Of a stretch of 39,258 nt of DNA, positions 13,930 to 19,504 are shown one piece after another. The notes under the pieces are model-generated. The model searched no databases. It was not told the origin of the DNA and was given only the letters and a program-made list of their open reading frames with translations. The number at the start of each line of letters is the position of its first letter. Positions within the stretch are counted from its first letter, which is position 1. The stretch lies in the IMG/VR virus record IMGVR_UViG_3300044640_003010, positions 1 through 39,258 of that record; one strand, 5' to 3'. Position numbers and translations under genes: made by a program. The stretch is from a virus.

Positions 13930-14136
13930 ATGAAGCTCACCGATTTCCTGGCCTCCGAAAAAATGACCCGTGCGGACTTCGCGTGTCGCATTGGTGTTCA
14001 TCCCGTCACTGTCTCCAAGTGGTGCAGTGGGGCGATGCGGCCCGGGTGGGCCGCAATAGAGCGCATTCAGGCGGTGACTGAGGGCCGGGTCACCGCTCAA
14101 GATTTTATGGCAGCCCCAACCGCGGCTGCCGCATGA
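13930..14136 (+). CDS. Cro-like HTH regulator (68 aa)
   Basis: MKLTDFLASEKMTRADFACRIGVHPVTVSKWCSGAMRPGWAAIERIQAVTEGRVTAQDFM is a compact XRE/Cro-type HTH (helix 2-3 at RADFACRIGVHPVTVSKW) with a short Ala-rich tail. It is the first gene from PR, divergent from the repressor and separated from it by shared operators, so it should act as the lytic-side repressor, as Cro does in lambda. No Shine-Dalgarno precedes ATG 13930, and the predicted transcript start is at the ATG. Confidence 0.82.
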   Translation: MKLTDFLASEKMTRADFACRIGVHPVTVSKWCSGAMRPGWAAIERIQAVTEGRVTAQDFMAAPTAAAA

Positions 14137-14140
14137 CTGT

Positions 14141-14566
14141 TCACCCCTCCCCGCGCTGCCGCCGTTCCTCTGCCAGCACTTCCTGCGCCTTCAATGTTTT
14201 CTGCCGTGATGTTTCGCGGGCGATGATCATTTCATCCCCGTCGCGCGGCAGGGCGTCAGGCCGTGCCCGCTGGAATTGGCGGATGGTGAAGCCAAGCGAA
14301 AGCAGCGCCATGATTCCCCCGAAGCCCGCCGCCAGAAGCTGGCCCATGTGCCAATCGGCCACGGGTTGCGGGCAATCAGCCCAGACGCGCCCGGCCACGG
14401 CTTGGCCGGCTGCCCATGTGGTGCAGGCCGCGAAATGCTCCATGCGTTTGGTGGGATCAATCGGCGCGTTGATTGCTTGGTGCAGCGTGGTTGCTGACAG
14501 GATGGTCAGAATGACCGTGAGCACCAAGGCCAACCAGGCCACGGTGCGATCCAGTGATTTGTCCAT
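14141..14566 (-). CDS. Membrane protein in the immunity region (141 aa)
   Basis: ATG 14566 has AAGGGA nine bases upstream; the frame is open further 5' but that part lies opposite the CII-like gene. Topology: N-terminal MDKSLDRTVAWLALVLTVILTILSATTLHQ with one membrane helix, a loop of about 50 residues containing two Cys (FAACTTW and ADCPQP), a second helix (MGQLLAAGFGGIMALLSLGFTIRQF), and a charged cytoplasmic tail (RARPDALPRDGDEMIIARETSRQKTLKAQEVLAEERRQ). It is the only leftward gene between Cro and the lytic genes and converges on the Cro-like gene. Lysogeny-expressed membrane proteins in such places are often superinfection-exclusion factors, but this is an inference. Confidence 0.7.
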   Translation of the reverse strand: MDKSLDRTVAWLALVLTVILTILSATTLHQAINAPIDPTKRMEHFAACTTWAAGQAVAGRVWADCPQPVADWHMGQLLAAGFGGIMALLSLGFTIRQFQRARPDALPRDGDEMIIARETSRQKTLKAQEVLAEERRQRGEG

Positions 14567-14578
14567 GATGTTGATTCC

Positions 14579-14600
14579 CTTCCCGTTCCTTTTCGGGAAG
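14579..14600. promoter_or_regulatory. Inverted repeat CTTCCCG/CGGGAAG, site 1
   Basis: CTTCCCG (14579-14585) and CGGGAAG (14594-14600) around 8 bases. On the minus strand it abuts the ribosome binding site of the membrane protein gene. Shares its half-site with the palindrome at 14632-14648. Confidence 0.55.
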
Positions 14601-14631
14601 CGGATCATATTCGCCCGCGCAACGCAAATCA

Positions 14632-14648
14632 GCGGGAAGCCTTCCCGC
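14632..14648. promoter_or_regulatory. 17-bp palindrome GCGGGAAG-C-CTTCCCGC, site 2
   Basis: Perfect 8-bp arms around one base, 21 bases before the CII-like start codon. Centre-to-centre distance to site 1 is about 50 bp, five helical turns. With no T-run, a protein-binding operator between the divergent genes is more likely than a terminator. Confidence 0.6.
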
Positions 14649-14668
14649 GTGAATTCATGGGGGGAAGC

Positions 14669-15121
14669 ATGAATTTGGCCTCGGCTGATGGTATCGGCCT
14701 TAAAACAGTCACGCGCGCCTTGGTGCAGGCCTGTGGCGGGGTGGAAGCGGGCAGCGCTGCGGCGCGGCTTTCCAAAACCAGCCTGGCCGCGTGTTATGAT
14801 CCGCATACGCCAGACCGCTTCATGCCAATTGATTGCATGCTGGCGCTGGAACGTGCGGCGGGTGATCCGGTGCTCACGCGCCATCTGGCGGCGTTGCAGG
14901 GCTTTGCGTTGGTGCAGCAGGCGGCGCTGGGTGGGGATTTCATCAGCCAGGTGGTGAAGCTTTCCCGCGAATATGGGGAGCTCAGCGCGGCATTCGCGCA
15001 GGCCCATGCGGATGGGAAGCTTTCGGCGGAAGATTTCCAGGGGCTGGCGCTGGAAGCGCTGCAGGTGGCGGGGCTGGCCATGTCTGTTGCTGCCATCGCC
15101 AAGGAAAGGGCGGCGGCATGA
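14669..15121 (+). CDS. CII/CP76-like regulatory protein (150 aa)
   Basis: ATG 14669 is chosen over 14657 because a G-rich site (GGGGGGAAG) precedes it. LKTVTRALVQACGGVEAGSAAARLSKTSLAACYDPHTPDRFMPIDCMLALERAAGDPVLTRHLAAL is the typical order of phage regulatory proteins of the CII/Phage_CP76 kind: an HTH with A-CGG, S-x-S/T-L-A-x-CY-x-P, then FMPID-x-x-LALE. The C-terminal half is helical and may oligomerise. Such proteins regulate early phage promoters. Two CGGGAAG inverted repeats just upstream are candidate binding sites. Confidence 0.8.
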   Translation: MNLASADGIGLKTVTRALVQACGGVEAGSAAARLSKTSLAACYDPHTPDRFMPIDCMLALERAAGDPVLTRHLAALQGFALVQQAALGGDFISQVVKLSREYGELSAAFAQAHADGKLSAEDFQGLALEALQVAGLAMSVAAIAKERAAA

Positions 15122-15231
15122 AGGCGCGGTTTTGGCGGATGGTGCAAAGCGTGCTGCGCAGCGTTGGTTTCGCGGTGCTGGATGCTTCGGATTGGGCTGA
15201 TCGCCGGGCGCGGAAGGCGCGGCGCGCATGA
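15118..15231 (+). CDS. Very small basic protein (37 aa)
   Basis: ATG 15118 overlaps the CII-like stop (ATGA) and its own stop overlaps the next start (ATGA 15228), so it is inserted without gaps in a coupled series. The sequence MKARFWRMVQSVLRSVGFAVLDASDWADRRARKARRA is an amphipathic helix with a strongly basic tail. No family recognised. Coupling is the main evidence for expression. Confidence 0.6.
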   Translation: MKARFWRMVQSVLRSVGFAVLDASDWADRRARKARRA

Positions 15232-15851
15232 GTGGCGAAAAATGGCCTCAGCCGAAGGATGATCTGCTGCGCCAGCTTTGGCTGCGTGGTGATACCGGCA
15301 CGGAAATTGCGCAGCACATGGGCATTACGAAAAACGCCGTGGTGGGCAGGGCGCATCGGCTGCGCCTGCCTGCGCGCCCTTCGCCTATCAAGGTGGGGGC
15401 TCGGCAGAATAGCGCGCCGCGCCATGGGGGTGTTGTGGTGCGGCGCGCGGCGGCGGGTGTTGTCATTCCTCCGGCGCCCGCCGCCAGAACAAGCTTGGGC
15501 GCCACGGGTGCCCCAAGGCCGGGCGCGGCGGCTTTCTCCGCGCAGCATGACGTTTCCTCCCTGTCCAACTTCCCTGCGCTGGCGGCGCGCTTAACGAACC
15601 CGTCGCCAGCGCGGGGCTTTTTGGATGGGGCAGAGGCGAAGCGGGAAAAGGCGGCGGCGCAGCCCAGGCCGCAGGTGTTCCCGGTGCGGGGCTGTCAGTT
15701 TCCGTTGTGGCCGCATGGGCCGCGCGTGGCGCTGGAAGATATGCGGTTTTGTGATGCGCCTGGGCGGTGCAACAAGGATGGCCGGCAGGATAGCGCGTAT
15801 TGCGAAGCCCATCATGCGCGGTGTTTTGCCAAGGTGAAGGAAGCGGCGTGA
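15228..15851 (+). CDS. GcrA-family transcription regulator (207 aa)
   Basis: Residues 1-50 (WPQPKDDLLRQLWLRGDTGTEIAQHMGITKNAVVGRAHRLRLPARPSPI) are the GcrA HTH domain: the L-W-x-x-G...EIA...TKNAVVG-x-HRL pattern. A variable Ala/Pro linker follows, then a C-terminal Cys/His part (GCQFPLWPHGP...MRFCDAPGRCN...SAYCEAHH) like the sigma-interacting region of GcrA. In Caulobacter GcrA binds RNA polymerase sigma-70 and acts at promoters with methylated GANTC. A phage copy could direct host polymerase to phage middle or late promoters or disturb the host cell cycle. Confidence 0.88.
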   Translation: MSGEKWPQPKDDLLRQLWLRGDTGTEIAQHMGITKNAVVGRAHRLRLPARPSPIKVGARQNSAPRHGGVVVRRAAAGVVIPPAPAARTSLGATGAPRPGAAAFSAQHDVSSLSNFPALAARLTNPSPARGFLDGAEAKREKAAAQPRPQVFPVRGCQFPLWPHGPRVALEDMRFCDAPGRCNKDGRQDSAYCEAHHARCFAKVKEAA

Positions 15852-15943
15852 TGGAAGGCGTGGGGTTTTCTGTTGGGGTGGTGGTGGCGATCTGCGCCGC
15901 CGCTGTGGTGATCAATCGTCTGGCTCAGTGGGCGGTGTTTTAA
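15851..15943 (+). CDS. Minimal membrane peptide (30 aa)
   Basis: ATG 15851 overlaps the GcrA-like stop and its stop overlaps the next ATG (TAATG). The product MEGVGFSVGVVVAICAAAVVINRLAQWAVF is almost only one hydrophobic helix with Arg/Gln near the end. It may insert in the inner membrane. Only the double coupling and the hydrophobicity support it. Confidence 0.5.
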   Translation: MEGVGFSVGVVVAICAAAVVINRLAQWAVF

Positions 15944-16200
15944 TGAGCGCGGTTTTGGCTGCGAAGTTGCTGACGCTTCTGACGTTGGCGGAAGTGTGGC
16001 TGAAGATGCGGGCTTACGATGATTTGGCCCTTGCGCATGCGGAGATGGTTCAATTGCTGGATTTGCCCTTGCCTAGCTTTGAAATGGATTTTTTCAAGCT
16101 GCTGAATCAAGCGAAAATCTGGCGGCAGAAGCAAAGGCATGAAGAAGTCGCGCGCTGCCATGCGGATATGCGGGCCTTGCTGGAAAGTGTGGAAGCTTGA
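15943..16200 (+). CDS. Unknown helical protein (85 aa)
   Basis: ATG 15943 overlaps the upstream TAA; an open frame extends 5' to 15928, within the small peptide gene. MSAVLAAKLLTLLTLAEVWLKMRAYDDLALAHAEMVQLLDLPLPSFEMDFFKLLNQAKIWRQKQRHEEVARCHADMRALLESVEA is helical, with two similar halves (AEVWLKMRAYDDLALAHAEM and AKIWRQKQRHEEVARCHADM), an internal duplication of about 50 residues spacing. No membrane segment. Function unknown. Confidence 0.65.
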   Translation: MSAVLAAKLLTLLTLAEVWLKMRAYDDLALAHAEMVQLLDLPLPSFEMDFFKLLNQAKIWRQKQRHEEVARCHADMRALLESVEA

Positions 16201-16697
16201 GCGCCGCTTTACCCTTGCCGGATCAACGCACTGCGCATGGGTTGGATACCGGCATTTTCGCGCCGCCACCCAAGCGTGGCACCAAGGCCGGTGATGCGCC
16301 GGCCTGGGTTTTGGCGGAAGAAGTCACGCGGTTTTCGGATGCCCATCTGGCGCGCGCCTTTGTCGCCATGGGCTTCACGCGCAAGATTTCGGAGCATGCG
16401 CGCATTGCCACGCCTTTGATGGATTTCACGGCGCCGCTCAGCCGCTTGTCTTCCCTCAAATTGCATTTGGCCGTGCTGGAATGGCGCGTGATGCTGATGG
16501 CGCGGCCTGATGCCTCGGCCATTTATGTCTGCACTGTGTCCGGTAACTGGATCACGGAAACGGGCGGCGCGCGCGGCGAACGCTTTGCCAGCCTGATGGC
16601 CTTCATGAAGGACTTGGACATTTATCAGGCCTGCGCCGCGCTGCTGCGCGCCAATGGCTACAGGAGGGTGCCGCGTGTCGCAGAGCTCAGCCGCTGA
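16197..16697 (+). CDS. Unknown protein before the replication ATPase (166 aa)
   Basis: The start is TTG 16197, which overlaps the previous stop (TTGA); there is no other start until residue 58, so the unusual codon is needed to keep the conserved-looking N-terminus. Segments RTAHGLDTGIFAPPPKRG, EEVTRFSDAHLARAFVAMGFTRK, and SGNWITETGGARGERFASLMAFMKDLDIYQACAALLRANGYRRVP are seen; the last is mostly helical. It precedes a P-loop ATPase, so a replication partner is possible, but I do not recognise it. Its 3' end overlaps that gene by 23 bases. Confidence 0.65.
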   Translation: MSAALPLPDQRTAHGLDTGIFAPPPKRGTKAGDAPAWVLAEEVTRFSDAHLARAFVAMGFTRKISEHARIATPLMDFTAPLSRLSSLKLHLAVLEWRVMLMARPDASAIYVCTVSGNWITETGGARGERFASLMAFMKDLDIYQACAALLRANGYRRVPRVAELSR

Positions 16698-18571: not shown

Positions 18572-18647
18572 TTCACACCCTTCACACCCTGCTTCACACC
18601 TTCTTTCATTGAAAATACTCAGGGTGTGAAGGTGTGAAGGGTGTGAA
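18572..18647. repeat. Iteron cluster 1: 3 forward and 3 inverted copies of TTCACACC
   Basis: Forward TTCACACC at 18572, 18581 and 18593; reverse GGTGTGAA at 18623, 18631 and 18640. The two arms face each other around an AT-richer centre (TTCTTTCATTGAAAATACTC). Likely binding sites for a replication initiator or a regulator. Confidence 0.8.
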
Positions 18648-18655
18648 GCAGTTTT

Positions 18656-18673
18656 CCTCACGTGCGCGTGAGG
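18656..18673. repeat. 7-bp hairpin between the iteron clusters
   Basis: CCTCACG (18656-18662), TGCG loop, CGTGAGG (18667-18673). It lies between cluster 1 and the ribosome binding site of the gene at 18707. No T-run follows. Confidence 0.5.
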
Positions 18674-18706
18674 CATGAAGCGGTAACCCTATAGGAGAAG
18701 TGTATC

Positions 18707-19504
18707 ATGGACGCGCGTGTATATTCGCCTTCACACCCTTCACACCTTCACACCTTCAATGAAATAAAAGAAAAAAGGTGTGAAGGTGGGTGTGAACAGG
18801 GTGTGAAGCTGACGGATAGGGTGGGAAGCATTCAATCCGGCGGCGCCTGGGTCACCGGGGATGGTATGGCGCGTCGGGTGGTGGAAGTGGCGCATGCCCG
18901 TGCGATGGCCGAAGAAGCCCGGGCGCTGGCGGCTCAGTGCCGTCCAGACCCCGCGTTCAGGCTTCCGGTGGGTTATGACCCTGAAGCGGCTGTGCGGGCT
19001 GCTGAGGGGCTGGCGCGGCGGGTGGTGCATCAGCGGGTGGTGCGGGCGGATAAGCTGGCTGGGCTGCGGGATGCGGGCAAGATCACGCCTATCGAGTTTC
19101 GCGCGGGTCAGGAAATCAGGCTGGTGGTGGAATACCTGGATGGCGGGCGCGTGCCGATGGTGCGCAGCCAGTTTGCTGAGCGCTTGGCCAGCGGCTCGGA
19201 CGGCACCGGGGAACTGATGGGGATCGAGGAAGCGGAACGTGAGCGCTTCGGCCCCTGGCGCGCCTGGGCGCGGCGCTTGCCGGCGCGGCGGCTTCCTTGG
19301 CGGTCAGATGAAACCATTGAAGACTTGACGCGCCTGGTGGTGGTGAAGGGGCGCGGCTTGCGGCAAGTGGCCGATGCGCTGCGGATTGACCAGCGCAACG
19401 CCTTGGCTCGGCTACGGCAAAGCCTGGGCTGGTATGTGGAAAGGGCTGGCTGGGCAGGCGGTGAAAATACCCGCTTGACATCCCACCACGTTTCGATGCT
19501 ATGA
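18707..19504 (+). CDS. Unknown protein with iterons in its 5' end (265 aa)
   Basis: ATG 18707 has AGGAGA nine bases upstream. The first 35 codons are made of the second iteron cluster and give an odd, His/Ser/Lys-rich sequence (SPSHPSHLHTFNEIKEKRCEGGCEQGVK); a shorter start at MARRVVEVAHARAM (near 18865) would avoid it. The rest is helical and basic: VVRADKLAGLRDAGKITPIEFRAGQEIRLVVEYLDGG, then a C-terminal HTH-like segment (TRLVVVKGRGLRQVADALRIDQRNALARLRQSLGWYVERAGW). It may bind DNA, possibly the clusters it spans. I do not recognise the family. Confidence 0.7.
   Translation: MDARVYSPSHPSHLHTFNEIKEKRCEGGCEQGVKLTDRVGSIQSGGAWVTGDGMARRVVEVAHARAMAEEARALAAQCRPDPAFRLPVGYDPEAAVRAAEGLARRVVHQRVVRADKLAGLRDAGKITPIEFRAGQEIRLVVEYLDGGRVPMVRSQFAERLASGSDGTGELMGIEEAERERFGPWRAWARRLPARRLPWRSDETIEDLTRLVVVKGRGLRQVADALRIDQRNALARLRQSLGWYVERAGWAGGENTRLTSHHVSML
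18730..18807. repeat. Iteron cluster 2: 3 forward and 3 inverted copies of TTCACACC
   Basis: Forward copies at 18730, 18739 and 18747; reverse GGTGTGAA at 18777, 18789 and 18800. The same 3+3 facing layout as cluster 1, with an A-rich centre (GAAATAAAAGAAAAAA), all within the coding 5' end of the gene at 18707. Confidence 0.8.

Follow-up and report, generated by a model that had tools for sequence, protein, structure and literature searches.

A candidate replication origin of four iteron triplets directly behind a helicase-like gene in temperate phages, mainly of Acetobacterales

Iteron origins placed immediately after the gene of a self-loading helicase are already known from SaPIs, PICIs and SCCmec, and the SCCmec helicase Cch is related to the initiator Rep of SaPIbov1. 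Among phages, P4 relies on a single phage-encoded helicase-initiator, alpha, which reads short iterons at ori and crr, two well-separated sites, and which is a fused primase-helicase. In the SaPI and PICI modules, the ori lies directly 3' of the helicase gene, short iteron sets flank an AT-rich stretch, and the iterons are read by the C-terminal domain of the helicase (PMC7581432, PMC6092414).

The 236-bp repeat element described here lies in the window, that is, the whole 39,258-bp stretch of viral DNA that was analysed, and is in all likelihood the ori of a temperate phage, with the gene immediately upstream encoding the initiator, which would be a self-loading, hexameric helicase akin to Cch and SaPIbov1 Rep. 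This reading is based on position, repeat geometry, an AT-rich gap, the helicase fold of a predicted protein model and the way in which iterons and C-terminal domain diverge together. As in the Rep-ori modules of SaPIbov1, SaPI5 and the Escherichia coli PICIs, the element is placed directly downstream of a helicase gene, and its inner-right (IR) and outer-right (OR) triplets flank an AT-rich gap. Covariation and a natural swap, to both of which linkage contributes, would agree with the C-terminal domain as the iteron reader. Unlike those modules, the element has four triplets instead of two iteron sets, its initiator is missed by Pfam models, the gene upstream is usually a Toprim primase instead of an archaeo-eukaryotic-type primase, and the carriers are ordinary temperate phages, most of them phages of Acetobacterales, along with a Synechococcus phage. 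Since the window encodes an integrase, a CI-like repressor, a CII-like activator, a gpA-type terminase, portal, major head and tape measure proteins and tail genes, the record is that of a temperate phage and not of a satellite; the module would work like that of SaPIs and PICIs, although its carrier is not a PICI. The likeness to P4 lies in the single phage-encoded helicase-initiator with short iterons, whereas the separation of the P4 sites and the fusion of alpha to a primase set that system apart.

Twelve repeats had been listed in this region by the earlier note, and all of them were recovered exactly, in place and in strand, as TTCACACC/GGTGTGAA copies, with no further copy in all 39,258 bp (Table 1); in 100 dinucleotide shuffles of the window, such copies numbered 0.70 on average and 5 at most. 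The first copy starts 11 nt past the ATPase stop, in agreement with the position right after a P-loop ATPase gene that had been claimed, and a degenerate thirteenth copy, GGTGGGAA, is found near 18820. The steps between copies are 9-12 bp in the outer triplets and 8-9 bp in the inner ones. The right cluster is the left one inverted (75 nt, 80% complementary), so that the whole element is symmetrical. Each cluster indeed has the AT-rich centre ascribed to it, the two gaps reaching 70 and 83% AT versus 32% in the right flank. A search of Rfam returned no matching family for the element, and the GC skew of the window, a check named beforehand, has the same sign on both sides of it; a gene-dense phage genome need not flip. 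The short spacer hairpin recurs in L015 as CCCCACG..CGTGGGG, with both sides changed, and in L014 in a version with a T-G pair, and alternating purine-pyrimidine stretches occupy its place in several other loci.

Table 1. The repeat element and its two neighbouring genes (positions are those of the window)
Feature	Position	Strand	Details
Helicase/initiator-like AAA+ ATPase gene, 635 aa	16654..18561	+	phrog_21086, function not annotated
Outer-left iteron triplet (OL)	18572..18600	+	TTCACACC at 18572, 18581, 18593
Left AT-rich gap	18601..18622	.	70% AT, measured over 23 bp
Inner-left iteron triplet (IL)	18623..18647	-	copies at 18623, 18631, 18640; steps 8, 9
Short spacer hairpin CCTCACG-TGCG-CGTGAGG	18656..18673	.	
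Next gene, 265 aa, no family match	18707..19504	+	first codons overlap triplets 3 and 4
Inner-right iteron triplet (IR)	18730..18754	+	copies at 18730, 18739, 18747; steps 9, 8
Gap IR-OR, proposed DNA unwinding element	18755..18776	.	83% AT, measured over 23 bp
Outer-right iteron triplet (OR)	18777..18807	-	copies at 18777, 18789, 18800; steps 12, 11

The upstream ATPase very probably serves as both replicative helicase and initiator, as suggested by structural matches of its model to Cch and MCM helicases, a marginal alignment with DUF927 proteins and the Toprim primase genes that precede it in related loci. Apart from its own PHROG family, it also hit, less strongly, a PHROG annotated as DNA primase. 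Pfam searches assigned no family to it, with no DUF927 (PF06048) hit at E ≤ 1, and DUF927 was absent among the 25 Pfam families most matched by 45 members of the ATPase family. The protein model built from 45 sequences has a mean pLDDT of 81 and superseded an earlier one from 10 sequences (pLDDT 69.5), which was too weak. Its best structural match is the DUF927 helicase Cch of SCCmec (5dgk_B, Z 17.5, rmsd 6.6, 413 residues, 65-620, including the C-terminal part), at only 11% identity, and the next matches are MCM helicases (Z 16.0); the model agrees with the fold of the Cch/Rep helicases, of which the AAA+ core alone is widely shared. Foldseek retrieved the NrS-1 and ASFV primase-helicases and MCMs with low TM-scores (~0.3), and a sequence search of solved structures returned nothing useful. 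The hhalign comparison of the ATPase family with DUF927 proteins gave a marginal similarity (E 9.6e-4, probability 22%) around Walker A, the DTT..GLE motif and Walker B, and among PDB proteins, a profile of the Acetobacterales DUF927 proteins hit Cch and one from a pathogenicity island. Of 53 loci, 39 have a Toprim primase gene upstream of the ATPase; none was found immediately before the helicase gene in the window (14133-16697) or in L014-L016, so that priming there would fall to another or a host primase. Just 5' of the replication module, the window also encodes a GcrA-like cell-cycle regulator (15228-15848, Pfam E 7e-11).

Relatives of the ATPase were gathered from viral contigs, from Acetobacterales and other alphaproteobacterial genomes and from annotated phages, and came mainly from Acetobacterales. 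In the core family, defined as the relatives with a score above 500, a k-mer cluster was detected within 350 bp after the helicase stop at all 47 non-redundant loci (cluster score median 17.9, minimum 10.9), compared with 0/46 control stretches upstream (maximum 6.9), 0/47 inside the gene (maximum 7.5) and 0/141 Markov shuffles (maximum 5.5). Iteron clusters were searched for and not found downstream of the distant homologues L018, L019, L020, L240, L247-type, L183, L178, L180 and L187, and the layout accordingly belongs to the core family and part of its periphery. Cluster scores and step counts were obtained automatically, while triplets were assigned by hand for the AT-gap and orientation counts. 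The family layout consists of four triplets with inner steps of 8-9 bp and outer steps of mostly 10-12 bp; of 84 steps in the IR triplet, 80 measure 8 or 9 bp, and those in OR are mostly 10-12 bp. The last three triplets keep the same orientation in 29/29 hand-assigned loci, and the outer-left one occurs in both directions. At every locus measured, an AT-rich gap separates IR from OR (51-86%, mean 73%, with a mean of 38% in the right flank); the left gap has a family mean of 54% AT and is AT-rich only in some loci, among them the window and its close relatives.

This difference between the halves would fit an accessory array read by the helicase, serving copy-number control, handcuffing or repression of neighbouring genes, with the true replication start elsewhere: the consistently AT-rich gap is confined to the right half, and the mirrored left half is without one in most relatives. 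The right half alone, however, is built like a PICI origin (PMC6092414), and no second cluster of this iteron exists in the window, which makes an accessory role of the whole element very improbable; the left half by itself may still be such a control array, read by the same helicase.

Within the fixed layout, the iterons themselves vary. The TTCACACC motif is kept in seven close relatives of the window ATPase and is replaced by CTCACACC, in identical layout, in L016 (ATPase 57% identical), by CTCACA in Synechococcus phage MinM1 (ATPase ~45%) and, in more distant relatives, by GTGAGACA, GTTACAT, GTCACAT, GCTACC, GTGCCCT, GTCCCGC, GTTCCCT and others; literature searches on the motif and on MinM1 turned up nothing relevant. 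When the loci are read in the IR direction, a single register, [G/T]T[C/T][A/C]C and then bases that depend on the lineage, accommodates the iterons; L172, which was mis-oriented by the automatic register, is absent from the covariation set. Iteron distance correlates with the distance between C-terminal domains (residues 456-625) once the other domains are corrected for (partial r 0.34), a value reached by 0/500 label permutations in a test that takes no account of phylogeny, and covariation with the N-terminal, core and lid domains was not seen. In a sliding window, covariation peaks at residues 590-624 and also at 275-294, and because of this second peak single windows are not trusted. Close pairs such as L157/L160 speak against this reading, the iterons of that pair differing much while the C-terminal domains are 74% identical.

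A natural exchange is found in the L229/L217 pair, the DNA of which is 90-100% identical up to ~700 nt before the ATPase stop. Identity drops to 33-64% from ~500 nt before to ~260 nt past the stop and recovers to 89-97% in the next gene (~95%). The two proteins share 99-100% identity in the N-terminal and core domains but 53% in the C-terminal domain, and the iterons are of the GGGAACC type in one locus and of the GGTAACA type in the other. The confinement of the drop to the C-terminal domain and the element indicates that the exchanged block comprises this domain and the whole iteron element. On these comparisons, the upstream ATPase is the likely iteron reader, and its C-terminal domain, about residues 456-625, is proposed to make the contact; part of both the covariation and the swap would stem from recombination linkage or shared inheritance, since the domain and the iterons adjoin on the DNA.

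The downstream gene is outside the conserved module. In the window, its reading frame spans triplets 3 and 4, as the earlier note had pointed out, and within this clade that overlap is probably genuine, the ATG at 18707 and the ribosome-binding site being kept in L013-L016; in the more distant L173 and L175, the frame opens only 3' of triplet 3. It had also been suggested that the repeats are an autoregulatory site, an operator around the gene's own start codon bound by the 18707 DNA-binding protein. The overlap with the first codons, a ribosome-binding site between the clusters and a downstream protein in L201 that resembles a regulator speak for this, but the 18707 protein has no family hit and its homologues occur in only 12/53 of the downstream stretches searched, the others having NusG-like or different genes with iterons still present, as they are in 47/47 core loci. 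The repeats do not travel with the downstream gene, whose type varies without loss of the element and which, in the swap pair, stays ~95% identical while the iterons change; the product of this gene is hence very probably not the reader, and the operator explanation retains only a very slim chance. NusG-like genes follow the predicted origin in MinM1 (L017 7949-8578) and in L148 (8038-8667), suggesting a late-gene antiterminator in that slot.

Least probable are two further explanations. A packaging site (cos/pac) recognised by the small terminase, which is encoded ~1 kb downstream, would suit the many loci with terminase genes at 1-2 kb, yet the repeats do not travel with the type of small terminase: the terminase family switches between phrog_15 and phrog_9/phrog_83 with the layout unchanged, and the distance to the small terminase gene ranges over 977-2046 nt while that from helicase stop to iterons is nearly fixed. 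An RNA element or attenuator, with the mirrored repeats folded as hairpins in the leader of the downstream gene, would account for the long inverted repeats and for the two-sided change in the small spacer hairpin, but the arm spacings are unequal (9,12 versus 8,9), the outer-left triplet is reversed in a second class, in which the left pair cannot form a hairpin, and Rfam offers no family, all of which renders RNA structure highly unlikely.

The interpretation of the repeats as a replication origin, already put forward in the earlier note, is in contrast strongly supported by comparison and structure, through the helicase-like gene upstream, the conserved geometry, the AT-rich stretch, the covariation with the C-terminal domain and the natural swap. 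At such an origin, the C-terminal domain of each protomer would read one 8-bp iteron, and two oppositely oriented triplets may seat one hexamer, a stoichiometry that is a guess; with two triplets per hexamer, the twelve iterons would seat two hexamers. The complex could then melt the AT-rich DNA that separates triplets 3 and 4, after which the helicases would load and replication would start; any role of the left half in this scheme is a guess.

Iteron clusters also accompany other helicases. Clusters of TTCACACC lie within ~570 nt of the genes of DUF3987, DUF5906 and VapE-like phage helicases, in a layout different from that of the window, and hhalign detected no significant similarity between the DUF5906 and DUF3987 helicases and the window helicase. 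Such clusters are upstream of DUF3987 prim-pol helicases in L025, L060, L088 and L121 and downstream of DUF5906 and VapE-like helicases in L075, L118, L035 and L056, and L136 and L057 likewise have such clusters beside unrelated phage helicases. The adjacency to replication genes is striking, and as these loci were picked by the TTCACACC motif no frequency follows from it. Some, not all, of the Acetobacterales DUF927 loci carry iteron clusters downstream; those of L263, L257 and L262 do so with a different spacing, L263 having GTTGTCTA twelve times.

As far as the literature was searched, it is new that a module of this kind serves a broad group of ordinary temperate phages through an unannotated helicase family, that a fixed four-triplet layout is combined with free iteron sequence, and that the cassette has been swapped naturally. 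We tentatively envisage a widespread, unnamed family of phage initiator-helicases with a fixed twelve-iteron, double-hexamer origin, in which specificity may reside in a portable cassette of C-terminal domain and ori that is recombined between phages, perhaps as an escape from interference among co-resident phages, plasmids and satellites sharing iterons. Comparison gives a likely function to an initiator family filed without one, and allows the replication origin to be predicted to the base pair in many phages that infect acetic-acid bacteria or relatives of these. With a single geometry and many different iterons, the dozens of loci form a ready-made data set on the joint change of initiator and origin specificity, which the L229/L217 swap makes directly testable by domain exchange.
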